A stretch of 64,000 nucleotides of DNA from Phycisphaerales bacterium (GCA_013360675.1 JABWBB010000009.1:1-64000); one strand, 5' to 3'. Positions 7,101-63,884 are shown, numbered from the stretch's first letter. The notes: a model not told the origin generated them from the sequence alone. Translations and numbers: made by a program.

Positions 7101-7374
7101 CGGCAAGGACTCCTTTTGAAATGGCCTGTCGCGAGGACGCACCCCGCGCGCATCCGGCGCTGCTCGTCGCGGCACCGACCCCCGTCACATAAAGAATAAC
7201 GGATTCTCGGCCCCGTCAATCGGCGAAGATCCGATTTGGCCGCAGGTTGGCGGGGGTGCCACCGGCCACATACCCCGCACAGGCCGAACGAACATCGAAG
7301 AAAACAGCGGACGCACCGGTACGAAAGTGGGCTACAGCCGATCCTCATGCGGGTCGGCAACGCCGAGGATCATC

Positions 7375-7794: not shown

Positions 7795-7828
7795 CCGCGG
7801 ATGACCCATCATCATGCCTAAAAAGAAA

Positions 7829-7856
7829 AACCCCCGAGCCATGCGGCCCGGGGGTT
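7829..7856 (-). terminator. Terminator of the lamin-tail dockerin gene
   Basis: The stem pairs 7829-7840 with 7845-7856 with one mismatch and a 4-base loop; on the minus strand it is followed by a T-rich tract (complement of 7820-7830). It serves the leftward gene ending at 7884. The stem could also stop the rightward pilin gene, but there is no T-run on that strand. Confidence 0.75.
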
Positions 7857-7883
7857 CGTGGTGTTGATCAGCCAGAGCGGGTG

Positions 7884-10860: not shown

Positions 10861-12126
10861 ATGGATCGATCGATCAAAGCCGCGGCGGTCTTGACACTGG
10901 CCATGGTCGCGACGGCGAATGCTCAGGTGTCGACCAAGTCGGCGCCCGCGTCCAAGTCCGCATCCGCCACCCCCGGTCGCTACGTTGAGTTCCCGGTCGA
11001 TTCCGTCGAGATCGAGCAGCTGCGTGTGACCACCCGCGGCACGCGCCTCCCGGGCGGGTTCAGTTCGCGCGACAACTGCCCGCAGACGAGCATGCATTCG
11101 ACCGACCTGTTCAATGGCGGGACGTTCACGCTGCAAGGGGGCTTTGCGCAGGGCGAGGTCGCCGCGGTCAGTTACACGCTGCAGGCCAGCCGCTTCCCGC
11201 TGAAGATCACCGGGGCTGAGTTCTTGATCGGGCAGCAGAACGCCTCCGTGACGACCACCACGCAGTGGTCGGTGCTGATCTGGGACGGGCTACCGGGTAC
11301 GGGCCAGCTCGTCGCCGAGTTTTCATCGGACGGCTCGATCCTGCCGCACGTGGTCATGGCCCCGGGCACGCGTGCAACAAACGTCAACGTGCAGGTGGAT
11401 CCGAGCGATCCTGAGCAGGTCTTTGTGTTCGGCACCCATCCCAGTGCGCTCAACACCTTCTCCGTCGGGTTCCGCATCGATCGCCACAACAACCAGACGC
11501 AGAACCCCTGCACCGTCGCCCCCCCGGCGACGCAGAACGCCTTCCCCGCCACCGACAACTCGGTCGTCGGCTGCGGCACGGGCTATGGACAGCTCCAGCA
11601 GCCCGCCCACAACTGGCTCTATGGCCTCAACTGCGGCGGGCTCGGCTGTCCGCCCAATGGCGGGTGGGCTCGGTTCAGCAGCCTCTCACCAGACACGGTG
11701 CTCGGCGGCGGGTTCTGCCTCACGGGATGCCGCCCGCGCGGCGACTGGGTCATCCGCGCCACGTGGGACCCGGTGAACTGCCCGGGCGTCCCCGGGGCCT
11801 GCTGCATCGCGGCGACCAACGCGTGCCTGCTCTTCGACATCGACACCTGCAATGCTGTCGGCGGGCAGTGGATGGGCGCCAACACCAACTGCGCCGATAA
11901 CAACGGGAACGGTCGCGCCGATTTCTGCGAGCCGCCCAACCCCTGTCCCCCATGCCCGGCGGACTTCAACCGCTCGGGCGGCACACCCGACGACGCCGAC
12001 GTCGCCGCCTATTTCGACGCGTGGAATAACGGCGATCCGTGCGCCGATGCCAACCTCTCGGGCGGGACGCCCGACGACGCCGACGTGGCGGCGTTCTTTG
12101 ATCTCTGGAACGCAGGCGGGTGCTGA
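10861..12126 (+). CDS. Secreted protein of unknown function with GC-type dockerin
   Basis: The protein has 421 aa with a signal peptide ending ATANA (about residue 21). The ATG at 10861 follows a strong GAGGAGGAAGG; in-frame codons further upstream lack this. The body (about 40-300) is a beta-rich domain I do not recognise. A cysteine-rich module follows (about 300-355, GACC... then TCN... ending in one NNGNGRADFC calcium-like repeat); similar GACC modules occur in other planctomycete exported proteins as far as I recall. The four-cysteine GC-type dockerin occupies 362-421. It is the first gene of the rightward dockerin series. Confidence 0.82.
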   Translation: MDRSIKAAAVLTLAMVATANAQVSTKSAPASKSASATPGRYVEFPVDSVEIEQLRVTTRGTRLPGGFSSRDNCPQTSMHSTDLFNGGTFTLQGGFAQGEVAAVSYTLQASRFPLKITGAEFLIGQQNASVTTTTQWSVLIWDGLPGTGQLVAEFSSDGSILPHVVMAPGTRATNVNVQVDPSDPEQVFVFGTHPSALNTFSVGFRIDRHNNQTQNPCTVAPPATQNAFPATDNSVVGCGTGYGQLQQPAHNWLYGLNCGGLGCPPNGGWARFSSLSPDTVLGGGFCLTGCRPRGDWVIRATWDPVNCPGVPGACCIAATNACLLFDIDTCNAVGGQWMGANTNCADNNGNGRADFCEPPNPCPPCPADFNRSGGTPDDADVAAYFDAWNNGDPCADANLSGGTPDDADVAAFFDLWNAGGC

Positions 12127-12327
12127 TCGTCGGTCCTGAGTAGACCGCCTCAACTCGCCGGCACATCGCGGTGCGCGGCGGGGTGTCCGAGAACCCCGGC
12201 GCGGGATGTAACACCTTGGGCGTCCCCGCGTAGACGCCTGCGTGGCTGACGCCGGCAGTCGGTGACTGAGCCTTGGTCGAGTCGAGCCTGCACCCCTGGC
12301 GCGGGCCTTTTTCAGGAGGGTCGAGAG

Positions 12328-15129
12328 ATGTCCCATGTCCTTCGCGCGGGCGTGCGTGCCGCGGTACTGACCAGTCTGCTGGCCACCTGCGGCCTGGCGC
12401 TGGGTATTGATCAGAATGCCGCCGGCGGCTTTGTTCCGCCCGAGACCCAAGCGCTGATCGATGCGACCCCGGGCCTCCACGCCGACATGCTCCCCGGGCG
12501 CGTGATGGGCCTGTGGGGCACGGCGATGCTCGCCGCCAAGGATCCGGCCACCGCGGCCCAGTCGTGGCTGGCCATGCACGACCGGGCGCTGGGCGCCGGC
12601 CCGCTCGAGACCGCGCTCATCCGCGAGGACGAGGTCAACTACGGCAAGTTCAGCGTGTTCGTGTACGAGCAGCAGATGGACGGCGTGCCCGTCGAGTTTG
12701 GGCGCGTCCGCGTGATCGTGCTCAACACGCGCGACGACAGCCGCGTGGTGGGCGTGAGCTCCCGCGTGGCGCCGCGCCCCTTCGAGGGGTTCCGCCCCGA
12801 CACGCACGACGCCGTCGACGCGTTCAACGTGGTGACGTCCTTCGAGGTCTTCAAGCGATTCGAGAACTGGTCCAAGCCCGAGATGGTGATCTACTTCGGC
12901 GAGGGCGATCTGCCCGCGCCGATCGAGCCCGTCCGCGCGTGGAAGTTCACGGGCGAGTTGGTGCACGCCGATCCCGAGAAGTACCAGAAGAAAACCTTCT
13001 TCGTCGACGCGAGCAACGGGCGGCTGCTGTTCATCCGCAATGAGGTGCTGCACATCGACGTGACGGGCCAGGTGCTGGCCAACGCGACGCCCTGGCCGCT
13101 GGGCAACGCCGCCGCCGATCACGCGGGCAACCCGCCGATCCTGCAGACCGTGCCCAACATCAAGGTGCGGATCGTGGGCGGGGGCGAGGCCTTCACCGAC
13201 GCCGACGGCAACTTCACGATCGCGCACGCGGGCACGGCCCCCGTGACGATCGAGGCGAGCGTGGGCGATGGTCGCTGGGCCCGCGTGGCCGATCAGGGCG
13301 GCACGCCGCTGATCACCGCCAGCACCACCGCGACGCCGGGCATCCCCGCGACGCTGACCCTGAACACGACCCCGGGCCAGTTCACCAACGCCCAGGCCAA
13401 CGCGTTCATCCACCAGACGCTGACGCACAACCACTTCAAGGATCGCGCGCCCACCTTCACCGCGCTCGACACGCAGCTCCCGGCCAACACCGCCGTCTCG
13501 GGCTCGTGCAACGCCTTCTACAACGGCACCTCCACCAACTACTACAACATGAGCGCCACGTGCAACAACACCGCCTTCTCGTCGGTCGTTGCGCACGAGT
13601 ACGGGCACCACATCGTCAACCGCCTGGGCCTGGCCCAGGGGGCCTTTGGCGAGGGCTTCGGTGACACCATGAGCATGATGATCTACGACGACCCGGTGGT
13701 CGGGCGGTTCTTCAACATCAGCGGCGGGGCCGTCCGCACGCCCGACACCACCAACCAGCAGTACCCCTGCTCGACGACCGCCGTGCACACCTGCGGGCAG
13801 ATCCTGGGCAACGTGATGTGGGAGCTGCGCAAGGCCTTCGTCAACCAGCACGGGCTGACGAACGGGCGCGACATGATCCGCCAGCAGCACATCGACTGGG
13901 CCCTCATCACCGCGGGCGGCGTGGGCAATGAATCCGCCAACCCCGGCACCCTGTGGGAATGGCTCACTATCGATGACAACGACGGGAACCTCAACAACGG
14001 CAGCCCCAACTACTGCCTCATCGTCGGCGCGTTCGCGCAGAGCGGCATCCCCGAGCCGCAGCTCACCCCGTCGGTCGCGTTCGCCTTCCCCGATGGTCAG
14101 CCTTCGAACCTCGTGCCGGGCGTGGCGACGAACTTCCGCGTGAATGTCTCCGCCGGCAGCGCGACGCCCCTGCCGGGCACCGGGTCGCTCTACTACCGCC
14201 GCGTGGGCGCTTCGTCGTTCACGATCGCCCCCATGACGCAGGGCGCGGCCAACCAATACACCGCGACCATTCCCGCGCAGGACTGCGGCGCCCCGATCGA
14301 GTACTACGTGCGCGTCGGGATCAACGGCGGCGCGGCGGTCTCGCCCTATGCCTTCTGTGCACAGCCCACGCGCTACGCGACGATCACCAGCGGCCAGAGT
14401 GTCGTCGCCACCGACGACATGGAGATCGACCGCGGCTGGACGGTCGGTGGCAACGCCAGCTCGGGGGCATGGGTGTTGGGTGATCCGATCGGCACCGCCG
14501 CTCAGCCTGAAGACGACACCACCCCCGGCGGCGTGAACTGCTGGTTCACCGGCCAAGGCACGGCCGGCGGCGCGGTCGGCGAGGCCGACGTCGACGGCGG
14601 CTACACCATTCTCACCAGCCCCACCTACAACCTCAACGGCTTCGCCGATGCCGAGATCCGCTACAACCGCTGGTATTCCAACAACGCCGGAGCCGCCCCC
14701 GGCGCCGACTGGTTCTACACCTACGTCAGCACCAACGGCGGCTCGTCCTGGCGGCTGGCTCAGCTCGTCGGACCCAACGGCCCTGAAACCACCGGCGGGT
14801 GGAGGGCCTCGTCCTTCCGCCTCTCTGATGTGCGGTTGACGCCCACGTCGTCGGTGCGCGTGCGGTTCCGCGCCGAGGACATCTATTCAGGTTCAATCGT
14901 CGAGGCCGCCATCGATGACCTTGAAGTTATCGGCATCACCTGCGACAACGCGCCCCCCTGCCCGGGCGATTACAACGGCTCGGGCGGCACGCCCGACGAC
15001 GCCGACGTCGCCGCCTTCTTCGCCGACTGGAACGCGGGTGATCCCCGCGCCGACATCAACGGGAGCGGCGGCACGCCCGATGACGCCGACGTCGCCGAGT
15101 TCTTCAACTTCTGGAATCAGGGCTGCTGA
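12328..15129 (+). CDS. Secreted M36 (fungalysin-type) metallopeptidase with GC-type dockerin
   Basis: The protein has 933 aa and starts at an ATG with AGGAGG 8 bases upstream. A signal peptide (about 1-29, ending ALG) is followed by an FTP-type propeptide region (about 40-230), then the catalytic domain with HExxH (H423, E424, H427) and the third ligand in GEGFGD (E442), as in fungalysins. A MAM/jelly-roll-like domain (about 690-875) precedes a two-cysteine GC-type dockerin (878-933). M36 enzymes are made as zymogens and cleave extracellular proteins after removal of the propeptide. A strong terminator lies just downstream at 15146. Confidence 0.92.
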   Translation: MSHVLRAGVRAAVLTSLLATCGLALGIDQNAAGGFVPPETQALIDATPGLHADMLPGRVMGLWGTAMLAAKDPATAAQSWLAMHDRALGAGPLETALIREDEVNYGKFSVFVYEQQMDGVPVEFGRVRVIVLNTRDDSRVVGVSSRVAPRPFEGFRPDTHDAVDAFNVVTSFEVFKRFENWSKPEMVIYFGEGDLPAPIEPVRAWKFTGELVHADPEKYQKKTFFVDASNGRLLFIRNEVLHIDVTGQVLANATPWPLGNAAADHAGNPPILQTVPNIKVRIVGGGEAFTDADGNFTIAHAGTAPVTIEASVGDGRWARVADQGGTPLITASTTATPGIPATLTLNTTPGQFTNAQANAFIHQTLTHNHFKDRAPTFTALDTQLPANTAVSGSCNAFYNGTSTNYYNMSATCNNTAFSSVVAHEYGHHIVNRLGLAQGAFGEGFGDTMSMMIYDDPVVGRFFNISGGAVRTPDTTNQQYPCSTTAVHTCGQILGNVMWELRKAFVNQHGLTNGRDMIRQQHIDWALITAGGVGNESANPGTLWEWLTIDDNDGNLNNGSPNYCLIVGAFAQSGIPEPQLTPSVAFAFPDGQPSNLVPGVATNFRVNVSAGSATPLPGTGSLYYRRVGASSFTIAPMTQGAANQYTATIPAQDCGAPIEYYVRVGINGGAAVSPYAFCAQPTRYATITSGQSVVATDDMEIDRGWTVGGNASSGAWVLGDPIGTAAQPEDDTTPGGVNCWFTGQGTAGGAVGEADVDGGYTILTSPTYNLNGFADAEIRYNRWYSNNAGAAPGADWFYTYVSTNGGSSWRLAQLVGPNGPETTGGWRASSFRLSDVRLTPTSSVRVRFRAEDIYSGSIVEAAIDDLEVIGITCDNAPPCPGDYNGSGGTPDDADVAAFFADWNAGDPRADINGSGGTPDDADVAEFFNFWNQGC

Positions 15130-15145
15130 GTTTCGTCCTCTTGTC

Positions 15146-15190
15146 GTCGCCCGTGCGGATAGCCCCCGCGCCGCACGGGCGACTTTTTTT
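15146..15190 (+). terminator. Strong rho-independent terminator
   Basis: A perfect 13-bp GC-rich stem (15146-15158 with 15171-15183) has a 12-base loop and seven T residues (15184-15190). It ends only 12 bases before the next ATG (15203), leaving almost no room for a separate promoter between the terminator and that start. Confidence 0.92.
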
Positions 15191-15202
15191 ACGGAGCGCG
15201 CC

Positions 15203-17533
15203 ATGGATCTACGTTCGTTGCTGGCGATCCCCCTCTTCTCGGCCGTTGCGCTCGGCCAGGGCCCGTGCGAAGATCCCTACGCCCCGGGCTTTGATGATCA
15301 CACGGGCTGCGGCAAGGCCTGCATGCTGCGCCAGCGCGCCGCCGCGGGCCTGCCCGTCAATGACGACCCCGCCCAGTCCTTCCAGGGGCGCGAGGCCATG
15401 GGCGCGACGGACGTGCTCTCGAACGATCTCGACATCGAGATCGATCCGGCCAATGTGACCATCAATGGCAGCAACACCATGCGCGTGCGCGTGCTTACGC
15501 AGGGCCTGACCGAGTTCACGTTCATGCTGCGCAGCAACTTCGCCATCACCTCGGCGACGATCAACGGCGCGACCAACGTCAGCGTCGCCAACCCGCCGGC
15601 CAACAGTTACGCGCGTCGCGTGACGCTCGACCGGGCCTACAACGCGGGCGAAGAGTTCACCCTGCGGATCGCCTACAACGGCCCCGCCGTCAGCCGCGGC
15701 TTTGGCTCGATCACCTTCGGCACGCAGCCCGGCTCGACCAACCCGATCGTCTCGACGCTCAGCGAGGCGTATTACGCGGGGACGTGGTGGCCCGTCAAAG
15801 ACGGCGACGTCTTCCTGCCGGGCGACAACGACGACAAGGCCACGCTCCGCCTGGCGATCACCGCGCCCAACACCCTGCGCAGCGTCTCCAACGGCCTGCT
15901 CACCGGCGTGACTGACCTGCCCAACAGCCGCCGTCGCTACCAGTGGGTGCACAACTACCCCATCTCGACGTACCTCGTCGCCTTCTCGTCGAGCGTCTAC
16001 AACACGTGGACGCGCACCTACACCTATCCGCTGTCGGGCGGCGGCACGGGCTCGATGCCCGTCGAGTTCAACATCTACCCGGGTTCCGACACGCCCGCCA
16101 ACCGCACCGCGTGGGAACTTTGTCTTCCCATGTTCGACGCCTTCCGCCCCGTCTTTGGCGAGTACCCCTTCGTCAACGAGAAATACGGCATCTACCAGTT
16201 CCCCTTCGGCGGCGGGATGGAGCACCAGACCAACACCGGCCAGGGCACCTTCAGCGAATCGGTCACCGCCCACGAACTCGGGCACCAGTGGTGGGGCGAT
16301 GACGTCACCTGCCGCACGTGGCACGACATCTGGCTCAACGAAGGCTTCGCGACCTACTCCGAAGCGCTCTGGTACGAGCGCAAGCCCGGCTCGGCGGGGA
16401 TCTCGGCGCTGCACGGGGCGATGGCCTCGCGCCGCCCCGGGGCCGTCAGCGGCAGCGTCTATGTCTACGCCACCAACGACATGAACCGTATCTTCAGCAG
16501 CACCTATTCCTATCGCAAGGCGGCGTGGGTGCTGCACCAGTTGCGCAAGGTGGTGGGGGATGCGACGTTCTTCCAGATCCTCGCCGCCCATCGCGCCGCG
16601 TTCTCCGGGCGCGGCGCTACGACCGACGAGTTCATCGCCCTCGCCTCGAGCATCAACATGCAGAACGGCGGCGAAGATCTGCAGGGCTTCTTCACCCAGT
16701 GGGTCTACGCCGGGGGCGCGCCCGAATATGTCTACGCCTGGGAGAACGCCACCATCGGCGGCGCGCCCTACCTGCGCCTGCGCATCCGCCAGACGCAGGA
16801 TGCGACCTGGGGCGTCGATTCGCGCTTCGACATGCCCGTGGACATCCGCGTGAATACGGGCGCGACCCACACGACGCGCACCGTCCGCAACGACCGTCGC
16901 GATCAATATTTCCTGCTGCCGCTCACCGCCCCCGCCACGGACATCGTGCTCGACGAGTTCAACTGGATCCTGAACACCGCCAAGACGAGCGAGGCATACG
17001 TCCCGGGGCCGCCCAAGATCGCCGCCGCGTCGATCGCCCCCGGCGATGAGATCCGCGCGGATCTCTTCGCGGGCGAGGTGTGGCTGCAGTTCAGCGACGC
17101 GGTCTCCATCACGCCCGCGCATGTCACGCTCACCGGCCCCGGCGGCAGCATCCCCGTGACACTCGCGTACAACGCCGCCTCTTGGCGTGCGACCATCACC
17201 ACCGGTCTGCTCGCGCCCGGGGCCTATACGCTCGGCGTCGGCGCGGGCGTCACCGCCCAGGTCGGGGGCAGCGCGCTCGATGGCGAGATCGCCGGGTCGC
17301 TCCCCTCGGGCAACGGCATCGCCGGCGGCAACGCCGCCCTCGCCTTCGTCATCACCCCCGCCTGCCTGGCCGATTTCAACGCCAGCGGCGGGACCCCCGA
17401 CGATGCCGACGTCGCCGATTTCTTCGCCGCCTGGAGCGCGGGCGAAGAGGCCGCCGACATCAACGCCAGCGGCGGGACCCCCGACGACGCCGACGTCGCC
17501 GAGTTCTTCACTCTCTGGAACAACGGCTGCTGA
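15203..17533 (+). CDS. Secreted M1-family aminopeptidase with GC-type dockerin
   Basis: The protein has 776 aa. The ATG at 15203 follows ACGGAG and begins a signal peptide (MDLRSLLAIPLFSAVALG). The zinc site HELGHQWWGD (H357, E358, H361) and NEGFATY (E380) has the M1 spacing of 18 residues between HExxH and Glu. The upstream GGMEHQ corresponds to the GxMEN substrate-binding motif, with Asn replaced by His. An Ig-like domain (about 610-715) leads to a two-cysteine GC-type dockerin (721-776). It should remove N-terminal residues from extracellular peptides and so complements the M36 endopeptidase encoded just upstream. Confidence 0.93.
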   Translation: MDLRSLLAIPLFSAVALGQGPCEDPYAPGFDDHTGCGKACMLRQRAAAGLPVNDDPAQSFQGREAMGATDVLSNDLDIEIDPANVTINGSNTMRVRVLTQGLTEFTFMLRSNFAITSATINGATNVSVANPPANSYARRVTLDRAYNAGEEFTLRIAYNGPAVSRGFGSITFGTQPGSTNPIVSTLSEAYYAGTWWPVKDGDVFLPGDNDDKATLRLAITAPNTLRSVSNGLLTGVTDLPNSRRRYQWVHNYPISTYLVAFSSSVYNTWTRTYTYPLSGGGTGSMPVEFNIYPGSDTPANRTAWELCLPMFDAFRPVFGEYPFVNEKYGIYQFPFGGGMEHQTNTGQGTFSESVTAHELGHQWWGDDVTCRTWHDIWLNEGFATYSEALWYERKPGSAGISALHGAMASRRPGAVSGSVYVYATNDMNRIFSSTYSYRKAAWVLHQLRKVVGDATFFQILAAHRAAFSGRGATTDEFIALASSINMQNGGEDLQGFFTQWVYAGGAPEYVYAWENATIGGAPYLRLRIRQTQDATWGVDSRFDMPVDIRVNTGATHTTRTVRNDRRDQYFLLPLTAPATDIVLDEFNWILNTAKTSEAYVPGPPKIAAASIAPGDEIRADLFAGEVWLQFSDAVSITPAHVTLTGPGGSIPVTLAYNAASWRATITTGLLAPGAYTLGVGAGVTAQVGGSALDGEIAGSLPSGNGIAGGNAALAFVITPACLADFNASGGTPDDADVADFFAAWSAGEEAADINASGGTPDDADVAEFFTLWNNGC

Positions 17534-17619
17534 GGCAACGCCGCTCGCTGTCTTGGATCGAACACATTTGGGCTTGCCGCGCCGCCTGGTTCATGCTTGA
17601 ATCGGACCCGGAGGACCGC

Positions 17620-18885
17620 ATGAAGATCGCCCTGCTTGTCACCCTGGCGCTCGCCGCGCCCGCGCTGGCCCAGACCCGCTTAATGCTTTCCGATCGCGCG
17701 CGCGATTCGATGTGGACGCTGCTCGACGCCAACGGCACGTGGCAGATCCCCGACCCCGCGGGCGTCGTGCCCTACTTCACCATCGCCAACGCCCAGGGCA
17801 CGCAGCGCGTCGACAACATCAACGCCTTCGCGGTACGCGCGTCCGACGCCCTCGTCGTCGGCGGCGATCAGGTCACCGGCTTCATCTACGCCTGGCAGGA
17901 CATCAACGGCGACGGCGACGCCGAAGACCCCTGCGAGTCCCGCATCTACGCCACCCTCCCCATCCGCTCCTTCGCCTTCCCCACCGGCGTGGCGTTCGAT
18001 TCCCTGGGCCGCCTCTACGTCTGCAACGCGGGCAACGGCTTCGGCGACGACATCATCAACCGCCTGACCGATCTCAACGCCGATGGCGATTGCGACGACG
18101 CGGGCGAGGTCACCCCCTACGTCGCCGATGGGTTCTTCGGCCCGGGCAACGGGCCCTACTCGCCCCAGGAAATCTGCTTCCTGCCCGGCGGCCCGGGCGG
18201 GCGCGACATTCTCTATCTGCGCAACTCCTCGGCCAATCTCCACGGCGTCTACCGCTTCATCGATCTCAACGACAACGCCCGCGCCGACGACGCGGGCGAG
18301 TTCAACACCTTCTTCTCCGCCGCCAACGCGTCGGGCGTCACCCTCAGCGCGGGCTTCACCATCGAGCCCGACCTGGCCCGCCCCGGCTCGCTCTACTTCC
18401 TCCAGATCGCCACGGGCGGCGTCGACCAGTTGTACCGCCTGACCGATCTCAATGGCGACGGCGACGCCCTGGACGCGGGCGAGGCCGTTCTCGTCTTCTC
18501 GACCGCCGAAGCCGGGTTCACCAGCGTTGATGCGGTGAGCGTTCCCGACGGCTCGGTCCTCATCACCGACAACAGCGGTAAGCGCATCATCCGCCTGGTG
18601 GACACCGACGCCGACGGCACGTTCATGAGCGTGGGCGACCTCCGCACCGATGTGCTCGTCGCCGCCTCGCTGGTGGGCGATGTGCGCCAACTGGCCCTGA
18701 TGCCCGAGCCCGCGTGCGTGGGCGATTACAACCGCTCGGGGGGCACGCCCGACGACGCCGACGTCGCCGCGTTCTTTGCGGATTGGAACGACGCCGCCTG
18801 CCGTGCCGATGTCAACGGCAGCGGCGGCACCCCCGACGACGCCGACGTGGCCGAGTTCTTTGAACGATGGAATGCCGGGTGCTGA
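17620..18885 (+). CDS. Secreted beta-propeller-like calcium-loop protein with GC-type dockerin
   Basis: The protein has 421 aa. The ATG at 17620 has GGAGGA upstream and opens a clean signal peptide (ending APALAQ); an in-frame ATG nine codons upstream is less likely. The body carries recurrent acidic loops such as DINGDGDAED, DLNADGDCDD, DLNDNARADD and DLNGDGDALD, each preceded by a short hydrophobic strand, which suggests a propeller with calcium-binding loops, one per blade. The GC-type dockerin (366-421) is an intermediate form: one Cys before loop 1, an extra Cys between the loops (AACRAD) and a single-Gly GC end. Catalytic function is not evident. Confidence 0.8.
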   Translation: MKIALLVTLALAAPALAQTRLMLSDRARDSMWTLLDANGTWQIPDPAGVVPYFTIANAQGTQRVDNINAFAVRASDALVVGGDQVTGFIYAWQDINGDGDAEDPCESRIYATLPIRSFAFPTGVAFDSLGRLYVCNAGNGFGDDIINRLTDLNADGDCDDAGEVTPYVADGFFGPGNGPYSPQEICFLPGGPGGRDILYLRNSSANLHGVYRFIDLNDNARADDAGEFNTFFSAANASGVTLSAGFTIEPDLARPGSLYFLQIATGGVDQLYRLTDLNGDGDALDAGEAVLVFSTAEAGFTSVDAVSVPDGSVLITDNSGKRIIRLVDTDADGTFMSVGDLRTDVLVAASLVGDVRQLALMPEPACVGDYNRSGGTPDDADVAAFFADWNDAACRADVNGSGGTPDDADVAEFFERWNAGC

Positions 18886-19042
18886 CCCCGGAACCGCGTT
18901 CTTCTTGATTCAAACAGGGGTATAGAACAAGGCACAAAATCCCTGGCGATAACCCCGCCTTGCCTGTAGACTTAAAAACAGGTTGTTGTAGTCCGCAATT
19001 CGCGCGTTGCGTCCTCAACACCTCATGGCAAGGCGGTGCACG

Positions 19043-20638
19043 ATGAATCTGTGCTCGGCGGTTCGGCGTTGTGTCTACACGGCGGCGGCGGGCTCGCTCG
19101 CGCTGCTCCCCTCCCTGGCCCTCGCCCAGTGCCCCGACGGCTGGTCCACCACCTTCGGTGCCCCCGGCGCCGACAACCCAATCCACGCCATGATCAACTA
19201 CGACCCCGACGGCACGGGGCCCAGCCCATCGATGCTCGTCGTGGGCGGGTCCTTCGCCCGCATCGGCGGTAACTGGATCAACAACATCGCCGCGTGGAAC
19301 GGCACCACATGGATCCCGATGGGCACGGGCTCCAACGGCACCGTCCGCGCCTTTGCCCTCCTCCCCAACGCCTCGGGCGGCAACGACCTCATCGCCGCAG
19401 GGTCGTTCTGGATCATGGACGGCGTCTCCACCCCCTACATCGCCCGGTGGAACGGCTCGGCCTGGTCCAGCATCGGCGCGATGGACGCACCGGTCTGGTG
19501 CCTCCTGACCACGCCCAGCGCCTCGGGCGGCGTAGACCTCATCGCCGGGGGCGACTTCAACACCGCTGGCGGAACATCCGCCTATTACATCGCCCGCTGG
19601 AATGGCAGCGCCTGGTCGAACTTCGCCCCCGGCCCCGAGCAGCGCGTCCGCGCCCTCATCAACGCCCCGGGGGGCGGCTTCTACGCCACCGGCAACTTCA
19701 TGTTCGCCGGCGGCCAGACGGTCAACAACATTGCCCGGTGGAACGGCAGCGCCTGGTCCCCCCTCGGCTCGGGCCTCGGCTCGGGCGGTGTGGCCCTCGC
19801 GCTCATGCCCAGTGGTGACCTCGTTGTGGGCGGCAGTTTCCAGACGGCGGGCGGGTCCCCCGCCAGCCGCGTTGCACGATGGAACGGCAGCGCCTGGTCC
19901 GCCCTGGGCGCAGGGGTCAGCAGCGACGTCGCCGCACTCCACGCCCTGCCCAGCGGCGACCTGCTCGTCGGCGGCTACTTCACCAGCGCGGGCGGCGCCG
20001 GCGCCCCCTACCTGGCCCGATGGAATGGCAGCGCATGGTCCGCCTTTGGCGGCGGGACCAACCTCAACGTCTATGCCCTGCTGCGCCACACCGGGGGCGA
20101 CATTCTCGTGGGCGGTCACTTCTCCGCGGCGGGGGGGATCACCTCCAACCGCATCGCCCGCTACTCGATCGGCGCCCCGGCCCCGATCATCACCACGCAC
20201 CCCGCCGACATCACTAACTGCGGACAGATCACCACGTCATTCACCTGCATCGGCGATCCGGGCGTCTCGGGCAGCGGCCTGCCGGGCCCGCCCCTGACTT
20301 ACGCCTGGCGTAAGAACAGCGTCGCCATCAACCCGCTGGCCAATCCCTCCGCCGCCACGCCCACGCTCGTGCTCCCCGCAGCGGGCATGGCCAACGAAGG
20401 GCCGTATGACTGCATCGTGACCAATACCTGCGGCAGCGCGACCAGCACGCCGGCGCAACTCAGCGTCTGCCCCGCCGACTTCAACTGCTCGGGGGGCACG
20501 CCCGACGATGCCGATGTCGCCGCGTTCTTCATCGCCTGGTCCCTGGGCCTCGACAGCGCCGACATCAACGCCAGCGGCGGCACCCCCGACGACGCCGATG
20601 TCGCCTACTTCTTTACCCGCTGGAGCGCGGGATGTTGA
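19043..20638 (+). CDS. Secreted WNGxxW-repeat propeller protein with Ig-like domain and GC-type dockerin (copy 1)
   Basis: The protein has 531 aa with a signal peptide ending ALALAQ (about residue 29). Residues about 45-380 contain roughly seven repeats with the core IARWNGSAWSxxG, each followed by a GDLxVGGxFxxAGG strand, as in Rax2-like propellers. An Ig-like domain (about 385-472) and a two-cysteine GC-type dockerin (476-531) follow. The ATG at 19043 is preceded by AAGGCGGT; an in-frame ATG at 19025 is possible. It is paralogous to the gene at 20965-22653, and both are followed by a tmk start (broken here, intact there), so they arose by tandem duplication. It is probably a binding or structural protein. 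Confidence 0.82.
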   Translation: MNLCSAVRRCVYTAAAGSLALLPSLALAQCPDGWSTTFGAPGADNPIHAMINYDPDGTGPSPSMLVVGGSFARIGGNWINNIAAWNGTTWIPMGTGSNGTVRAFALLPNASGGNDLIAAGSFWIMDGVSTPYIARWNGSAWSSIGAMDAPVWCLLTTPSASGGVDLIAGGDFNTAGGTSAYYIARWNGSAWSNFAPGPEQRVRALINAPGGGFYATGNFMFAGGQTVNNIARWNGSAWSPLGSGLGSGGVALALMPSGDLVVGGSFQTAGGSPASRVARWNGSAWSALGAGVSSDVAALHALPSGDLLVGGYFTSAGGAGAPYLARWNGSAWSAFGGGTNLNVYALLRHTGGDILVGGHFSAAGGITSNRIARYSIGAPAPIITTHPADITNCGQITTSFTCIGDPGVSGSGLPGPPLTYAWRKNSVAINPLANPSAATPTLVLPAAGMANEGPYDCIVTNTCGSATSTPAQLSVCPADFNCSGGTPDDADVAAFFIAWSLGLDSADINASGGTPDDADVAYFFTRWSAGC

Positions 20639-20668
20639 CATCCACCCGCCGGGGGGCAACCTCCCCGC

Positions 20669-20989
20669 GTGACCGAGCAGGCCCTCCTCGGCATGCTCCG
20701 CGGGCGGTTCATCGCCCTTGAAGGGCCCGACGGCTCGGGCAAGTCCACCTGTTGCAAATTCGTCGTTTCCTGCCTCTGTCACGCGGCGCTTGTCTGCAAG
20801 GTCCGAGAGCCCGGCGGCACACCGAATGACGTCGACTTCAGCGGCGACATCGCCCCCGGCAGACGCGACGTCGAGGCCGCGGGGCAGTCGTGGGCAGCGG
20901 GTCGTGCCCGTGAAATATCATCCGATGAACACTTGTTGAGATCTGCCAAGATATATTCTCAGGGATGCATTCATGGATCGTCAAGATGA
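20669..20989 (+). pseudogene. Truncated duplicate of the tmk 5' end
   Basis: The reading frame begins GTGACCGAGCAGGCC exactly as the intact tmk at 22685, and keeps the P-loop (EGPDGSGKST) and VREPGGTP, with scattered substitutions. After about position 825 of this kilobase (20825) similarity stops and the frame runs through unrelated sequence to 20989, overlapping the start of the next gene. The kinase core, DRF motif and lid are missing, so it cannot be a working thymidylate kinase. The 30 bases before it also match those before the intact tmk, so this is the scar of a tandem duplication that included the upstream dockerin gene. Confidence 0.88.
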
Positions 20990-22653
20990 CGCGTGAGCGG
21001 GCGGCCAGCGTCATCGTTGCGTGCGTGACAGCAGCCGCGGCGGCGCAGTGCGATCCCCGGTGGCTCCCGGAGACCCCGACGCAACCATTGTCCCTCGGCG
21101 CGGCCGCAATGGTGCGGCACCCTGACAGGCGCGTGTTTGCGGGTGGGTCCTTCAGTCAGGCGGGCGGGGTCAGCGCGAATCGCATCGCGCTCTGGGACGG
21201 CGTGGCGTGGTCTTCCATCAATGCCGCGCTGACGCCAGCCCAGCTCACCCCACGCGTGCACGCGATGGCGGTCATGCCCAACGGCGACCTGATCGTCGCC
21301 GGACACTTCGGCGGCGCAGGCGGCATCACCACAAACCACATCGCGCGTTGGAACGGAACCACATGGTCGTCTCTGGGCGGCGGGGTCTCCGGCGCAAGTT
21401 CAGGCAACAACCCGGCAGTCTTTTCACTCCTGGCGCTCCCCGATGGAGACCTCATCGTCGGCGGCGAGTTCACCACGGCCGGAAGCACGCCGGCCATGCG
21501 AATCGCCCGATGGGACGGCGAAGCCTGGCACGCCCTCGGGGCGGGTTTCGGCAGCCTTAGTTCGTATACGCCCGTCTATGGCCTGGCGCTGGCCCCCTCG
21601 GGCGCGATTATCGCCGGAGGACAGTTCCTCAACTCGGGCGCCCTGGGGCTGGGGTGCATCGCGTCATGGAACGGCTCGGCCTGGTCGGCTTTGTCCACCG
21701 GCATGACCAACAGCGGCTCGCCCGCGATCGTCCGCGCGTTGGCCTTTGAATCCGACGGGGCGCTCATCGCCGCGGGGCGTTTCAACCTCGCCGGCGGCGT
21801 CGCGGCTCGCTCCATCGCCCGCTGGAACGGCGTGGCCTGGGCCAGCGTCGGCGGCAACGTGGGATCACTACCCCAGCACGAAGTGGTCGCGCTAGCACTA
21901 TCACCCAGTGGCGAGATCACCGTTGGGGGCACATTTGATTCCGTCGCGGGCTCTCCCGCGTCGGCCATCGCCCGCTGGAATGGCTCCACCTGGTCAACGT
22001 TCTTGGGAGGGGTCTCCACCGGCACGGTCACCACGCCCAGCGTGTCGAGTCTTTTGCTTCTGCCCGGCGGCGAGTTGCTCGCGAGCGGAACATTCCTCTT
22101 CGCGGGCGGCAATCCCGCCACGCGATTCGCCAGATGGACCGACACGGGCATGCCCATGGTCATGCGTGAGCCCGCCACGCCCGAACCCGCGTGCCACGAA
22201 GCGATGTCGTACAGCGTCACGCTTGCTGGCGGTTATGCGCAGGCTTCACCGTCATGGCAGATCGAGGACCCTCACGCCGCGAACACGTGGCTCGACCTCG
22301 TGGACGGCCCGATCATGGTCCACGGAGAACACATCGCCAGCGCGGCCGGTGCGGACACGATCGCGCTCGAAATCACACCCCACACATCCTTCGCACCCAC
22401 GCGGGTCCGTTGCGCCATCTCAAACACGTGCGGCATCACCTACACAGAACCATCCACACTTGAGACAACGTGCACGCCCTCGTGCCTCGCCGATTTCAAC
22501 CGCTCGGGGGGCACCCCCGACGATGCCGACGTCGATGCGTTCTTTGACGCCTGGTCCCAGGGCCTCGACAGCGCCGACATCAACGCCAGCGGCGGCACCC
22601 CCGACGACGCCGATGTGGACTACTTCTTTGAACGCTGGAACGCCGGGTGCTGA
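20965..22653 (+). CDS. Secreted WNGxxW-repeat propeller protein with GC-type dockerin (copy 2)
   Basis: The protein has up to 562 aa. Either the ATG at 20965 (CAGGG just upstream) or the one at 20986 could start it; both give a signal peptide ending TAAAAAQ. About seven repeats with WNGxxW and a GGxFxxAGG strand fill residues about 45-395, followed by a partly degenerate Ig-like region and a two-cysteine GC-type dockerin (507-562). The last 30 residues are nearly the same as those of the gene at 19043-20638 (GLDSADINASGG), while the propellers have diverged more. The tmk gene starts 32 bases after its stop, so they may be co-transcribed. Confidence 0.82.
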   Translation: MHSWIVKMTRERAASVIVACVTAAAAAQCDPRWLPETPTQPLSLGAAAMVRHPDRRVFAGGSFSQAGGVSANRIALWDGVAWSSINAALTPAQLTPRVHAMAVMPNGDLIVAGHFGGAGGITTNHIARWNGTTWSSLGGGVSGASSGNNPAVFSLLALPDGDLIVGGEFTTAGSTPAMRIARWDGEAWHALGAGFGSLSSYTPVYGLALAPSGAIIAGGQFLNSGALGLGCIASWNGSAWSALSTGMTNSGSPAIVRALAFESDGALIAAGRFNLAGGVAARSIARWNGVAWASVGGNVGSLPQHEVVALALSPSGEITVGGTFDSVAGSPASAIARWNGSTWSTFLGGVSTGTVTTPSVSSLLLLPGGELLASGTFLFAGGNPATRFARWTDTGMPMVMREPATPEPACHEAMSYSVTLAGGYAQASPSWQIEDPHAANTWLDLVDGPIMVHGEHIASAAGADTIALEITPHTSFAPTRVRCAISNTCGITYTEPSTLETTCTPSCLADFNRSGGTPDDADVDAFFDAWSQGLDSADINASGGTPDDADVDYFFERWNAGC

Positions 22654-58933: not shown

Positions 58934-58957
58934 GGGGCGGATCCGAAGATCCGCCCC
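58934..58957 (-). terminator. Terminator with C(UUCG)G tetraloop
   Basis: A perfect 10-bp stem (58934-58943 with 58948-58957) reads on the minus strand with loop UUCG closed by C-G, a very stable tetraloop, and is followed by CTTTTCTT. It ends the dockerin gene that stops at 58986 and insulates comEC. Confidence 0.9.
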
Positions 58958-58985: not shown

Positions 58986-60596
58986 TCAGCAGCCGCCGTT
59001 GTTCCAGAGGGTGAAGAAGACCGAGACGTCGGCGTCGTCGGGGGTGCCGCCCGAGCCGTTGGCGTCGGCGCAGAACTCGCCGTCGTTCCAGGCCTGGAAG
59101 AACTCGGCGACGTCGGCGTCGTCGGGGGTGCCGCCCGAGTTGTTGAAGTCGGCCACGCAGGGGGGGCACTCGCACTCGTCGGGAATGCCGTTGGCGTTGG
59201 AATCCTGGCTGATGCCAAAGGCGATGTCGCACCCGTCGGCGCGTCCGTTGGCGTTGCAGTCGGGCGGGGCGACGGCGGGGACGATCTTGAAGAGCTGGCC
59301 GCCGGTCTGGTCGGTGATGTAGAGCTCGCCCTCGTTGTCCTCACCGAACGAGGTGGGATTGTCGAGGATCTGCCCGCCGATGGCGGTGCGCAGTTCGCTG
59401 GTGCGCTCGGTCAGCTCGGTGATGGCGCCGTTGGCCGCGCGCCGGAAAGACCAGACCTGACCCGAGCAATAGTCGGCGAAGAAGTAAGTGCCACGGAGTG
59501 CGGGCATCGCGCACCCGCGATAGACGTACCCGCCGGTGATCGAGCAAACCGAGCTGGTGACCGAGTGGTTGTAGGTGTGGACGGGCAGCGTCAGCGAGGG
59601 GCTGTTGCACGTGCAGCCCGAGAGGCCGGTGCAGACGTTCCCTTCCATGCAGCGCCAGCCGTAGTTGCGACCGCCCACGCCCATGGGCTCGAAGTTGACT
59701 TCTTCGCGGGCGTCCTGGCCCACGTCGGCGATCCAGAGGTCGCCTGTGTCACGGTCGAAGCTGTTGCGCCAGGGGTTGCGCAGGCCGTAACTCCAGATCT
59801 CCGCATCGCCGTTGGTCCCGTTGAAGGGGTTGCCGGCAGGGATGGCGTAGTTGCGGGCCGGGTCGGCGGGGAACTGGTCATCGTCGGCGTTGCCGGGGAT
59901 GTTGTCGGGCCCGTCGACGTCGATGCGGAGCATCTTGCCCAGCAGGTTGTTGGTGATGTCCTGGGCGTTGCCCATGCCGGCGGTGTGCCCGGGCGGGTCG
60001 ATGGAGGGCGTGCCCCCGCCGCAGTTGCTGTCGTTGCCGCAGCCGCCGTCGCCCGTGGCGATGTAGAGGTGGCCGTCGGGGCCGAAGTCCATCCACCCGC
60101 CGTTGTGGTTGGCGTCGGGCTGGAGCATGCGCATGAGGACGGTGGCGCTGGCGGGGTCGGCGGTAGTGGCCAGCGGGTTGCCGCCGGTGGCGCGATAGCG
60201 GGCGACGACCGCCGAGCCGCGCGAGACACCGGTGACGGGGTTCTCGGTGTAGTAGACGTAGAAATAGCCGTTGGTCATGAAGTTGGGATGGAAGGCCAGG
60301 CCCAGCAGGCCCTGCTCGCTGCCGCCGGCCAGCCCGGTGACGCTGAGATAGATCGTCGAACTGAGCACGTTGTTGATGCGGTCGAAGACGCGGATGCGCC
60401 CCGACGTGTTCGAGCTGCCCAGGCGCTGCTCGATGATGAACAGGCGGTTGTTATCCCCGGGCGGGGCGACGACGTAGATCGGGCGGGTAATCCCCGCCGT
60501 CATCATCTGGCTGCGCAGGGTCTGGGCCTGGGCGACGCCGGCGGCCATCGTGAGGGCCAGGGTCGCGCCGAGCACACAACGAACGAATCGAGACAT
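58986..60596 (-). CDS. Secreted PQQ-dependent sugar dehydrogenase-like protein with GC-type dockerin
   Basis: The protein has 536 aa with a signal peptide ending VAQAQ (about residue 25). The six-blade propeller (about 30-420) shows family hallmarks: GLLGLAFHPNF, NHNGGWMDFGPDGHLY with the His that matches the catalytic His of soluble glucose dehydrogenase, GDGG, and NPWRNSFD. A short DCNANG/DSNANG calcium repeat pair (about 435-470) links to a four-cysteine GC-type dockerin (477-536). It would oxidise a sugar or related alcohol outside the cell and pass electrons to an acceptor. AAGGAG precedes the ATG. It lies 107 bases after the pentahaem cytochrome gene without a terminator between. Confidence 0.88.
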   Translation of the reverse strand: MSRFVRCVLGATLALTMAAGVAQAQTLRSQMMTAGITRPIYVVAPPGDNNRLFIIEQRLGSSNTSGRIRVFDRINNVLSSTIYLSVTGLAGGSEQGLLGLAFHPNFMTNGYFYVYYTENPVTGVSRGSAVVARYRATGGNPLATTADPASATVLMRMLQPDANHNGGWMDFGPDGHLYIATGDGGCGNDSNCGGGTPSIDPPGHTAGMGNAQDITNNLLGKMLRIDVDGPDNIPGNADDDQFPADPARNYAIPAGNPFNGTNGDAEIWSYGLRNPWRNSFDRDTGDLWIADVGQDAREEVNFEPMGVGGRNYGWRCMEGNVCTGLSGCTCNSPSLTLPVHTYNHSVTSSVCSITGGYVYRGCAMPALRGTYFFADYCSGQVWSFRRAANGAITELTERTSELRTAIGGQILDNPTSFGEDNEGELYITDQTGGQLFKIVPAVAPPDCNANGRADGCDIAFGISQDSNANGIPDECECPPCVADFNNSGGTPDDADVAEFFQAWNDGEFCADANGSGGTPDDADVSVFFTLWNNGGC

Positions 60597-60703
60597 CGAG
60601 CAACTCCTTCGGACAAGGCCGCGGCCGCGGGCCATCCGCCCGCATCCCGCGACACATGAATCAGAACATCACCTACGTCGTTGCAGGTGCGCACGCAGTC
60701 GGA

Positions 60704-62569
60704 TCAGCAGCCTTCGTTCCAGCGGTCAAAGAAGAGGGCCACGTCGGCGTCGTCGGGCGTCCCGCCGCTGGCGTTGAAGTCGGCCCGCTCGTTCCCCTCG
60801 CTCCAGGCGGCGAAGAACTCGGCGACGTCGGCGTCGTCGGGCGTCCCGCCGGAGTTGTTGAAGTCCGCCGGGCAGCGGTTGGAGAGGTCGATCGTGCCCA
60901 GGTCGAGCAGGGCCGGCGCGCTCTTCCCGTGCAGCACCCATTGGTCATACGCGACCTGCCCGCGGGTGTCGGTCACGTTGGCGTCACGCAGGAACTCGAT
61001 GTATTCCTTGGTCGTGGTCTGGAAGAGCACGCGAACCTCGGCCCGCGTCGCCGTCGTGGGGATCCAGTACTCGGTGTCGTCCCAGTACTGCCCGTCGGCG
61101 TAGGTGTAGGCCACCGGCGCCGACTGCACCGAGGCGAAGGCGGCGTTGGTGAACCCTCGCGGCGGGATGCGGTTGTCCTTCAGCCACGTGTTGTTCAGTG
61201 CGAAGTGGAAGCTCTCGCCCGCGGGCTTGCCCGAGAGCGCCGATGCGTGCGCGTCGAGCCCGAGCTTCGCCTCGTACACCTTCGTGTCGTGCCCGGTCAG
61301 CACCGCTGACGCATCGTCGTAGTGCCCGCGCTCGGCGATCAGCACATCCTGCGCGTCGTAGAACTTCACGTTCACCCACATGCGACGACCCTCGGGATAC
61401 CCCGTCGGCAGCTTGTGCCCCGACTGGTTGATCACGCGCGTCGTCAGAAGGTTGCCGTCCTGGATCAGCTCCAGATCGCTGGCGGCGGCGAGCATCGCCT
61501 GCGTCCGCGCGATCGCGTCATCCACCGTTTCATTCGTCAGGCCCGTCTCATACTCGGGGTAGAGCCCGTGGATCGATCGCAGCACCCAGGTGTTCCCGCC
61601 CGCGAAGGCGTGGCGGGGCATCTGACGCTGGGGCGGGTTGAACTGCGGGTCGCACGCCGTGCCCGGGATCTTGGGCATGTGGCAATCCTGGCAGCTGCTC
61701 ACCATCGGGCTGATCCCGCCGTAACGGCTGCCCATGTCGATGGGAGCCTGGGCGAACGCGCTCTGGGCCCATTCGCTGTAAGTGCGCTCGATGGGGAACT
61801 GCTCATACTTCCCGCCCGTGGGGTGCGGCGTGTTAAGCGTGTTCGCGACATACGAGCCGTCGGGCTGCTTCGAATAGACCGGGTTGCTCACGTCGTGGCA
61901 GGCGGCGCAGTGGTTGCCCGTCAGGTGCAGCGGCGAGTAGAGAAAGGCGTGCGGCGCCTCGGGGTCGGGCAGGGGCCCGCGCCGACGGTCGAGCTTGTCG
62001 AGCACCAGGCTCGCGTTGCCGTGACGCGTGTATTCGGGATACCCGGGCACCACGACGGGATACTCAAATTCAGCCAGCAGGCTCTCGTCCTCAGGGGGGC
62101 TGATGCCCGGGCGATAGACCGGGTCGACCATGCGGTGGCAGATCGAGCACGAAACGCCCTCGAAGTCCGAGTCGGTGAGCAGGTTCCCCGTGGGGTCGGC
62201 CGTGCGCCCCGCCACGAACGCGCCGGGCGTGTGGCAACGCAGGCACATCTCGCCCGCGAAGGCGGCGTCCTGGTTGGCGACGGTGAGGGCGGCGTAAAAG
62301 ATCGGGTCGCGGGCGGCCTGGCCCATCATGCTCGCCGACCAGAGGGCGTAAGGCTCGTGCTCGTTGCTGTAATACCCGTGGCAGTTGGCGCAGCTCTGGG
62401 CGCTGACCAGCGGATGGGTCAGCGGGCCCGGCTGCGTGCCCGGGGCGAAGAAGTCGAGCGCGGTGGTGGGCACGGTGGCGATGGCCCCCGCCGCCGCCAG
62501 GATCGCGCCGGCCACCATCGAGACCCACACCATCTCGCCCGCGCCGCGGGCCTTTGTGACCTTGCTCAC
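60704..62569 (-). CDS. Pentahaem cytochrome c-like protein with GC-type dockerin
   Basis: The protein has 621 aa. Five CxxCH haem sites are visible (C60-H64, C109-H113, C141-H145, C221-H225, C293-H297) in the N-terminal half, like cytochrome c554-type multihaem proteins. The second half is a beta-rich domain, and a two-cysteine GC-type dockerin ends it (566-621). An N-terminal hydrophobic segment (about 13-33) serves as signal or anchor. GTG at 62567-62569 is the start: GGAGGGTGGATC precedes it, and the longer frame has no such site. It probably carries electrons outside the inner membrane; its partner may be the downstream PQQ dehydrogenase. Confidence 0.87.
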   Translation of the reverse strand: MSKVTKARGAGEMVWVSMVAGAILAAAGAIATVPTTALDFFAPGTQPGPLTHPLVSAQSCANCHGYYSNEHEPYALWSASMMGQAARDPIFYAALTVANQDAAFAGEMCLRCHTPGAFVAGRTADPTGNLLTDSDFEGVSCSICHRMVDPVYRPGISPPEDESLLAEFEYPVVVPGYPEYTRHGNASLVLDKLDRRRGPLPDPEAPHAFLYSPLHLTGNHCAACHDVSNPVYSKQPDGSYVANTLNTPHPTGGKYEQFPIERTYSEWAQSAFAQAPIDMGSRYGGISPMVSSCQDCHMPKIPGTACDPQFNPPQRQMPRHAFAGGNTWVLRSIHGLYPEYETGLTNETVDDAIARTQAMLAAASDLELIQDGNLLTTRVINQSGHKLPTGYPEGRRMWVNVKFYDAQDVLIAERGHYDDASAVLTGHDTKVYEAKLGLDAHASALSGKPAGESFHFALNNTWLKDNRIPPRGFTNAAFASVQSAPVAYTYADGQYWDDTEYWIPTTATRAEVRVLFQTTTKEYIEFLRDANVTDTRGQVAYDQWVLHGKSAPALLDLGTIDLSNRCPADFNNSGGTPDDADVAEFFAAWSEGNERADFNASGGTPDDADVALFFDRWNEGC

Positions 62570-62808
62570 GATCCACCCTCCGAAAGACCCCGCGTGCCGA
62601 TGACAACCCGATCGTTCCCGATCGGCCTTTCGACGCGAAGAGTCAAACGCTCCCCGTGGGTTTACGTCCGAAAAACAAAATCGGACCCGACCCGCCACAC
62701 CCTCTCATACGAGCATTCACCCCCCGCGTGTTTCAGGCAACCGCGGCGAACGCGATTCCCACGGAACGGGGGTTCTCCCGGGCTTTGTCACACACCCCAA
62801 GAAAGACA

Positions 62809-62832
62809 CCGCCCGGCGGTGAAGCCGGGCGG
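62809..62832 (-). terminator. Probable terminator of the second PEP-CTERM gene
   Basis: A 9-bp perfect stem (62809-62817 with 62824-62832) has a 6-base loop. The T-run on the minus strand is broken (complement of CAAGAAAGA), so termination is probable but not certain. Confidence 0.55.
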
Positions 62833-62876
62833 CGCGAAGTCACGGAACTGTCCGAGCCATGTGGCCCGGGTGTCGC

Positions 62877-63884
62877 TTAGCGGCGACGACGGAGGGCGAC
62901 CAGGCCGCCCATACCCAGCAGCATGGCCGAGCCGGGGGTCGGGACGACCTCGAAGCAGAACCAGTTGATGTCGAAGGCGCCGGCCTTCGTGTTGGCGACC
63001 TGCAGGCTGTTGCCCGCCGAGTCGGTGATGGTGAAGGTCATGTTGAGGCCCGTCGAGGTGCTGCTGTTCATCACCACATCAGCGAACTCGTTCATCGAGC
63101 CGGTGCGGAAGCCGTCGTCGCTGGGGCTGCCCATCGAGTTGGCCATGTTGAAGTTGGTGACGGCGATGTAGTAGATGCCCGGGAGGTAGTCGCGGTTGAG
63201 GTAGCTTTGCAGCGAGTTGGCCGCAGCGCCGCCGAGGACGTTGCCGTCGTCATTGCCGTAGCCGCGGATGGCGTTGAAGTTCGAGTCATACACCCACATG
63301 TCGGTGTCGGTCGAGTGGCCCTGTCCCTGCCAGTTCATCGAGATGAAGCCCGGCTGATAGGAGCCGATCTGCACGGGCGTGATCTGCGTGCGAGACAGCG
63401 TCGCGGTGTAACCCGCGGTCGTGGTGGTGGTGCCGTTGACGCGGTAGTAGACCTCGCCGGCGCGGCCGAAGCCGTACCACGAGTTCAGGCGGCTGGTGGT
63501 GCCGCTGATGGTGGCGCCGGTCTGGAGGGTGGCTTCCGTGGCGCTGTTGGTACCTTCGCCGCCGGGCAGGGGCCAAGCGCCCGCCGCTGCGCCGGTCTGG
63601 CCGGTGCCACGCAGGCTGGCGGAGTGGAGCACGCCGTTGTTGCCGCTCAGGATCATGTCATAGCGGTAGAGGCCCAGAGGGGCGGCCGAGGTCTGAACGC
63701 GGAAGTAATCCACGCCCGTGCCCGTGCTGGCCGTGCTCACGCCGGTGATCGTGCCGCCCGGTGCGATGCCAACCACGCCGTTCGCCGTGGCGCGCGTGTC
63801 GTTGGGCTCGGTTTCGCTGAACTGGGCCTGCGCGACGCTGGCGATGGCCGTGCCGGCAAGTGCTGCAATCAAATACGTCTTCAT
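62877..63884 (-). CDS. PEP-CTERM protein with pre-peptidase-like domain
   Basis: The protein has 335 aa with a signal peptide (ending VAQAQ, about residue 21). The N-terminal motif FSETEPNDTRATA is typical of bacterial pre-peptidase C-terminal (PPC) domains; a second beta-rich unit follows (about 170-290, DTDMWVYDSN). The C-terminus VPTPGSAMLLGMGGLVAL plus RRRR is a PEP-CTERM sorting signal. AGAGGAGA precedes the ATG. The remaining 116 bases to the window end hold its leader and no recognisable feature. Confidence 0.86.
   Translation of the reverse strand: MKTYLIAALAGTAIASVAQAQFSETEPNDTRATANGVVGIAPGGTITGVSTASTGTGVDYFRVQTSAAPLGLYRYDMILSGNNGVLHSASLRGTGQTGAAAGAWPLPGGEGTNSATEATLQTGATISGTTSRLNSWYGFGRAGEVYYRVNGTTTTTAGYTATLSRTQITPVQIGSYQPGFISMNWQGQGHSTDTDMWVYDSNFNAIRGYGNDDGNVLGGAAANSLQSYLNRDYLPGIYYIAVTNFNMANSMGSPSDDGFRTGSMNEFADVVMNSSTSTGLNMTFTITDSAGNSLQVANTKAGAFDINWFCFEVVPTPGSAMLLGMGGLVALRRRR

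Follow-up and report, generated by a model that had tools for sequence, protein, structure and literature searches.

A dockerin-tagged pentahaem cytochrome and a GSDH-family propeller protein encoded in tandem in a Phycisphaerales bacterium: a candidate surface redox set

Background

The penta-haem cytochromes (PHC) form a fold group that includes ExtKL of Geobacter and the PHC proteins of cable bacteria, and a relation of this group to the archaeal nanowire cytochrome AvECN is cited as well; the cable-bacteria proteins sPHC and lPHC are classed as potentially catalytic, with a five-coordinate haem (PMC11976967). Separately, dockerin-like modules occur on secreted proteins: for planctomycetes of another lineage, a cohesin/dockerin assembly termed "planctosome" has been put forward (PMC6461901), and dockerin and cohesin proteins are reported from anaerobic methanotrophic (ANME) archaea, where substrate-binding proteins of transporters are named as a common dockerin cargo (PMC9012536). 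Here we consider a locus in which these two themes meet. It belongs to the Phycisphaerales bacterium GCA_013360675.1 (2.92 Mb in 84 contigs, 97% complete) and lies on a stretch of 64,000 nucleotides of contig C39 (JABWBB010000009.1:1-64000; hereafter, the window), where the gene for a pentahaem c-type cytochrome is followed by the gene for a propeller protein of the GSDH family, both proteins carrying a related C-terminal dockerin tag. The original prediction held that the propeller is a sugar dehydrogenase dependent on pyrroloquinoline quinone (PQQ), which oxidizes sugar outside the cell and passes the electrons to the cytochrome, and that no dockerin-assembled redox pair of this kind had been described.

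In our opinion, the data are best explained by a two-gene operon, with co-transcription deduced from the gene layout, whose two exported products would be held at the cell surface by a common tag and would belong to a surface redox set together with a di-haem protein of the CCP/MauG type. We assign this reading a probability of roughly 0.55. Dockerin-tagged pairs of a cytochrome and a GSDH protein appear to be new to the literature, as had been surmised: a search of open PMC papers retrieved no description of one.

Results and Discussion

The gene pair and its pentahaem cytochrome

Both genes lie on the minus strand (Table 1), the cytochrome gene being separated from the propeller gene by a gap of ~107 nt. 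The cytochrome gene starts with a GTG at 62569, with GGAGG upstream; the likely start of the propeller gene is the ATG at 60596, with AAGGAG upstream, in a reading frame that is open back to an ATG at 60635. The proposed absence of a terminator between the genes was borne out by a same-strand scan, which revealed terminator-like hairpins on both sides of the pair and none inside it, and the predicted RNA fold of the intergenic gap is no better than that of shuffled sequence (z -0.62). Since the hairpins flank the pair, the two genes are likely to be co-transcribed as a two-gene operon.

Table 1. Coordinates of the features of the cytochrome-propeller locus, counted from the first nucleotide of the window
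Feature	Position	Strand	Basis
Cytochrome c with five haems, 621 aa; PHC/ExtKL-type fold, dockerin_GC tag at the C-terminus	60704..62569	-	Open reading frame, motifs, profile, model
Haem motif 1, CANCH, residues 60-64	62378..62392	-	Invariant in 44/44 rows
Haem motif 2, CLRCH, residues 109-113	62231..62245	-	Invariant in 44/44 rows
Haem motif 3, CSICH, residues 141-145	62135..62149	-	Invariant in 44/44 rows
Haem motif 4, CAACH, residues 221-225	61895..61909	-	Invariant in 44/44 rows
Haem motif 5, CQDCH, residues 293-297	61679..61693	-	Invariant in 44/44 rows
Dockerin_GC tag at the end of the cytochrome; two SGGTPDDADV repeats, first and last residue Cys	60707..60874	-	NF041540, 29.2 bits
GSDH-family six-blade propeller protein; signal peptide, Cys-rich linker, dockerin_GC tag; 536 aa	58986..60596	-	Pfam GSDH, 121 bits; start and Shine-Dalgarno sequence
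Propeller domain; keeps His177 and Arg286-Asn287 (sGDH His144 and Arg228-Asn229), no equivalents of Lys377/Arg406/Arg408	59271..60533	-	Alignments
Dockerin_GC-like tag of the propeller protein	58989..59159	-	20.2 bits (below cut-off); 75% identity to cytochrome tag
Terminator-like hairpin downstream of the propeller gene	58934..58957	-	
Terminator-like hairpin between the pair and the upstream PEP-CTERM-like gene	62806..62835	-	
PEP-CTERM-like protein gene	62877..63884	-	
Array of dockerin_GC-tagged secreted proteins	542..22653		

The cytochrome is a five-haem protein, in full accord with the original prediction: all five CxxCH motifs are kept in each of the 29 relatives from the same order that were aligned first and throughout a wider alignment of 44 rows. 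His320, His385 and Met298 are invariant in the latter alignment as well, and His207, His455 and Met82 are nearly so. The AlphaFold2 model of the cytochrome, obtained with high confidence (pLDDT 92.8, pTM 0.91), shows an Ig-like beta domain in the C-terminal part (residues 322-533), and its sole strong match in the PDB is the penta-haem cytochrome c552 of Thermochromatium tepidum (5ZE8; Foldseek E 2e-15; VIA Z 24.1, root-mean-square deviation 3.0, 340 residues aligned). This relationship surfaced only through profile and fold searches; the sequence alone, when compared with the PDB, yielded nothing usable, with best chance matches at E 0.2. Judging from the model, the cytochrome is a member of the PHC fold group (ExtKL / T. 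tepidum c552). It is not ExtKL itself and shares only the fold group with it, given that its score with the NCBIfam ExtKL equivalog NF040886 is 16.2 bits, far below the cut-off of 250. A comparison with a viral fold library gave no match at E <= 0.001, and a tblastn search of plasmids retrieved only distant (<27%) relatives. The host genome encodes a second PHC cytochrome with the same tag, on contig C64 (L184:9911-11788), next to dockerin proteins with weak 3-keto-disaccharide hydrolase-like and lectin/Ig domains.

The tag and the cellular location

As the original prediction had stated, both proteins terminate in a related module, which comprises ~56 residues with two SGGTPDDADV repeats and a Cys at each end. 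The tail of the cytochrome scores just above the 29-bit cut-off of the NCBIfam dockerin_GC model (NF041540); that of the propeller protein, despite its similarity to the former, stays below it, also in the scan of the entire genome (24.6 bits). In the cytochrome model, the tag is predicted to be helical at residues 546-557 and 574-585, and a PDB search with the tag sequence produced no match. About 54 proteins of the host genome are tagged in this way, with annotated cargo that includes M10, M36, M1 and S8 peptidases, PA14, lamin-tail and propeller proteins, and in all 40 tags that were extracted from this genome, Cys is the first and the last residue and the tag ends the protein. Together with the haem motifs kept in all aligned relatives, this regularity exceeds what would be expected by chance. 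Within the window itself, an array of about ten such genes (M10, M36 and M1 peptidases, PA14, lamin-tail domain, propellers) is found at some distance from the pair, and the gene directly upstream of the pair encodes a PEP-CTERM-like protein, so that two different C-terminal sorting signals occur side by side. Tags are nearly identical inside one genome and very different between genomes (host tags compared with those of L104-L183), a pattern which suggests that they are homogenized or co-evolve with a single receptor.

For the location of the cytochrome, the comparison of tails and neighbourhoods across 80 named cytochrome loci is informative. The closest relatives in named genomes come mostly from metagenome-assembled genomes of Phycisphaerales and other Planctomycetota, and inspection of the 80 loci showed dockerin-like tails at the end of most planctomycete copies. 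In other phyla, the same core carries other tails: two Bacteroidota copies (L164, L183) end in a type A sorting domain of the type IX secretion system (T9SS), with scores of 36.6 and 39.3 against a cut-off of 23, a Latescibacterota copy has the same domain (35.0), and the Krumholzibacteriia and Eisenbacteria copies possess FlgD-Ig/T9SS-like C-terminal domains that fall below this cut-off in both cases. Since the same core is joined to surface tags that differ from lineage to lineage, display at the surface seems to be a property of the cytochrome family, and this exchange of tags is the best evidence in support of the cytochrome working outside the cell. Hence we consider it probable that the cytochrome and the propeller are displayed at the cell surface. 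By the same token, dockerin tags in Planctomycetota and T9SS domains in Bacteroidota on one pentahaem core make an extracellular redox function directly testable in little-studied phyla, and tag-based surface display becomes tied to the fold of the ExtKL, cable-bacteria and archaeal nanowire cytochromes.

Two further observations on these copies can be recorded here. The Eisenbacteria, Krumholzibacteriia and Latescibacterota cytochromes have six CxxCH motifs. In another planctomycete lineage, cytochrome and GSDH share a non-dockerin tail that ends like YxxxxRDP..LSNGL..FC (L123, L134, L157; also L122, L124, L130, L153) and is possibly another sorting signal.

The propeller and the question of PQQ

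The propeller domain scores far above the Pfam cut-off for GSDH (PF07995, 25 bits), and 23 homologues retain the catalytic His and the Arg-Asn pair, as well as Glu107. In the MAFFT alignment of these homologues, no conserved basic residue is found at the columns of Lys377, Arg406 and Arg408 of sGDH; with hhalign, an Arg falls on the column of Arg408, though solely for the window protein. The C-terminal alignment with sGDH is of low confidence, but neither method shows a conserved Arg pair. In addition, the EHGP sequence of the sGDH calcium loop is replaced by DVGQ in the propeller family. Human HHIP, including its heparin-bound form (7pgm), is the best solved relative by both sequence and fold, ahead of the PQQ glucose dehydrogenases (sGDH/Asd); the structure model of the propeller proper is weak (pLDDT 64, 10 sequences) and too poor for judging the geometry of a PQQ site. 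Finally, the host genome yielded no match to pqqC and no match over the cut-off, that is, no genuine gene, for pqqE; when repeated across the phylum as a control, the pqqC search found matches in 9 of 294 genomes.

The proposed oxidation of extracellular sugar by a PQQ-dependent dehydrogenase, with the cytochrome as a haem wire and the dockerins keeping the two proteins side by side, has to be weighed against these data. The family-wide retention of the GSDH fold and of the catalytic His, Arg and Asn speaks in its favour, as does the recurrent linkage of the two genes described below. There is also a fungal precedent, since Coprinopsis CcPDH, which joins a PQQ domain with a cytochrome, is PQQ-dependent without some of the very residues that are missing here (PMC4133262, PMC6881789), and both E. 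coli and fungi can make use of PQQ from outside (PMC6881810). Nevertheless, with Lys377, Arg406 and Arg408 lost throughout the family, with HHIP, which likewise has PQQ-binding residues missing (PMC4133262), as the nearest solved relative, and with pqqC and a genuine pqqE missing, PQQ-dependent sugar oxidation is unproven, and the sugar-to-haem chain as originally drawn seems decidedly improbable. For the propeller, the name "PQQ sugar dehydrogenase" denotes no more than family membership, and annotation of HHIP-like GSDH proteins as PQQ enzymes needs proof; by analogy with CcPDH and the users of external PQQ, the propeller may still employ this cofactor, at a lowered likelihood. A fused haem/GSDH protein of the PVC type (TIGR02604) was considered and rejected, with a single sub-threshold match in one relative (15.7 vs 122).

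The similarity to HHIP opens another avenue, namely that the propeller serves for binding and not for redox chemistry and, comparable to HHIP with heparin and Hedgehog, attaches the cytochrome to an extracellular polysaccharide, so that the chemistry would be performed by the cytochrome alone, for instance at a five-coordinate haem. With such a haem, sPHC and lPHC are classed as potentially catalytic (PMC11976967), and the heparin-bound HHIP structure is among the best matches of the propeller. However, invariance of His177, Arg286 and Asn287 would be unexpected in a mere binder, and the conserved His207, His320, His385, His455 and Met82 of the cytochrome could fill most distal haem sites; we regard this option as unlikely.

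Linkage of the two genes

A GSDH gene is found within 10 kb of the cytochrome gene, always on the same strand, in 9 of the 80 loci, compared with ~0.5-1 expected from the density of GSDH genes. The linked GSDHs split into three separate clades. In the first one (the window, G010 and L113), the cytochrome gene is immediately followed by the GSDH gene, and G010 and L113 keep this order despite very different tags. In the second clade (L110, L111, L114, L115, L126), both genes reside inside arrays of tagged genes, being adjacent in L111, and in the third one (L123, L134, L157), cytochrome and GSDH both carry the different tail mentioned above. Clustering of all flanking reading frames revealed no partner gene common to most of the 80 loci, many of the recurrent components being shadow reading frames or lineage synteny.

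Several observations weigh against a functional unit held together by its tags. The expected linkage given above is too low because tagged genes cluster in arrays. Of 50 relatives with the cytochrome, only about 4 show linkage within 10 kb; the propeller is present in 93 of 101 relatives and the cytochrome in only 50, so that most genomes keep the genes apart and the cytochrome is not an obligatory acceptor of the propeller. No receptor for the tag was found, and cohesin (PF00963) has no match at E<=1 in the host genome and is present in 9 of 101 relatives; the "docking" thus lacks a recognized partner. With ~54 near-identical copies genome-wide, a shared tag by itself indicates the same compartment and not the same complex, and the combination of so many tags with no detectable cohesin points to a receptor or anchoring machinery other than a recognizable cohesin. 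Of the surface-bound electron-transfer unit that had been envisaged, the surface location therefore fares well, owing to the exchange of tags with T9SS sorting domains, and the recurrent linkage favours the unit, whereas the generic tag and the lack of cohesin count against it.

In the extreme, the two genes could be chance neighbours drawn from a large set of dockerin-tagged exoproteins and form no functional unit at all. The diverse cargo of the 54 tagged proteins, the arrays of tagged genes in relatives and the separation of the two genes in most of them would all fit. Yet the host genome has one GSDH gene and two PHC genes among its ~54 tagged genes, so that their adjacency by chance would amount to only a few per cent, and the linkage recurs in three GSDH clades, in one of which both proteins have a different tail. 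Chance neighbourhood therefore appears somewhat unlikely, and the odds of some functional link between cytochrome and propeller are, in our estimate, evenly balanced.

A proposed surface redox set

Some of the arrays that hold cytochrome and GSDH genes contain a further candidate component, a dockerin-tagged di-haem protein of the CCP/MauG type (MbnH-like; L110:338-2302, L126:779-2746 and L186:794-2680, the last representing the same cluster as L114). The host genome has one tagged copy, on contig C72 (11068-12963), away from the pair. The surface redox set that we favour could then function as follows. After export, haem would be attached to the cytochrome in the periplasm, and the tag would retain both proteins in the outer layer of the cell. 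There, the cytochrome might relay electrons or act on an extracellular substrate, and the propeller, by virtue of its His/Arg/Asn core, might either oxidize a substrate via an altered cofactor site and hand the electrons over to the cytochrome or bind a substrate or polymer beside it. Export signals, haems, tags, fold group and recurrent linkage can be read from the sequences; electron transfer within the pair is our proposal. A bolder version envisages a dockerin-anchored extracellular redox module of Phycisphaerales, a tag-assembled, non-cellulosomal complex of an HHIP-type propeller whose cofactor or PQQ site would be new, a nanowire-related PHC cytochrome and the CCP/MauG-type di-haem protein, where substrate oxidation at the surface would feed a haem relay; we deem it quite unlikely in this complete form.

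Conclusions

Taken together, the features of the pair can be matched to several known systems, none of which it reproduces. With the PHC family (ExtKL of Geobacter, sPHC and lPHC of cable bacteria, c552 5ZE8), the window cytochrome shares five haems and the fold, including the Ig-like beta domain (PMC11976967), and it differs by an identity of only ~23%, by the dockerin tag and by the neighbouring GSDH propeller. The tie to extracellular nanowires of the AvECN type is the relation between PHC and AvECN reported in PMC11976967 only. The propeller has the Pfam GSDH fold, the catalytic His and the Arg228-Asn229 pair in common with sGDH and Asd YliI, from which it departs in the three basic residues, in DVGQ instead of EHGP and in a host without pqqC or genuine pqqE. 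HHIP is its closest counterpart in the PDB, in sequence as well as in fold, and shares the missing PQQ-binding residues (PMC4133262); HHIP, however, is an animal signalling antagonist, whereas the window protein is bacterial and exported, is dockerin-tagged and has a His/Arg/Asn core that is invariant. The closest parallel in overall design is CcPDH (AA8 cytochrome b - AA12 PQQ domain - CBM1), in which an extracellular GSDH-like propeller is likewise accompanied by a haem domain and by a module for targeting (PMC4133262, PMC6881789), albeit as one polypeptide with a single b-type haem and proven PQQ use, as opposed to two proteins, five c-haems and a putative use of PQQ in the window pair. As in cellulosomes and the "planctosome", dockerin-like C-terminal modules are borne by many secreted proteins of, in the latter case, a planctomycete host (PMC6461901), but the system of the window is without a detectable cohesin, and its tag ends in GC, has a Cys at each end and contains a shifted, Ser-containing loop. 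Thus, the pair is a new combination of known kinds, namely a PHC cytochrome, an HHIP/GSDH propeller and dockerin_GC display, and not a new category.

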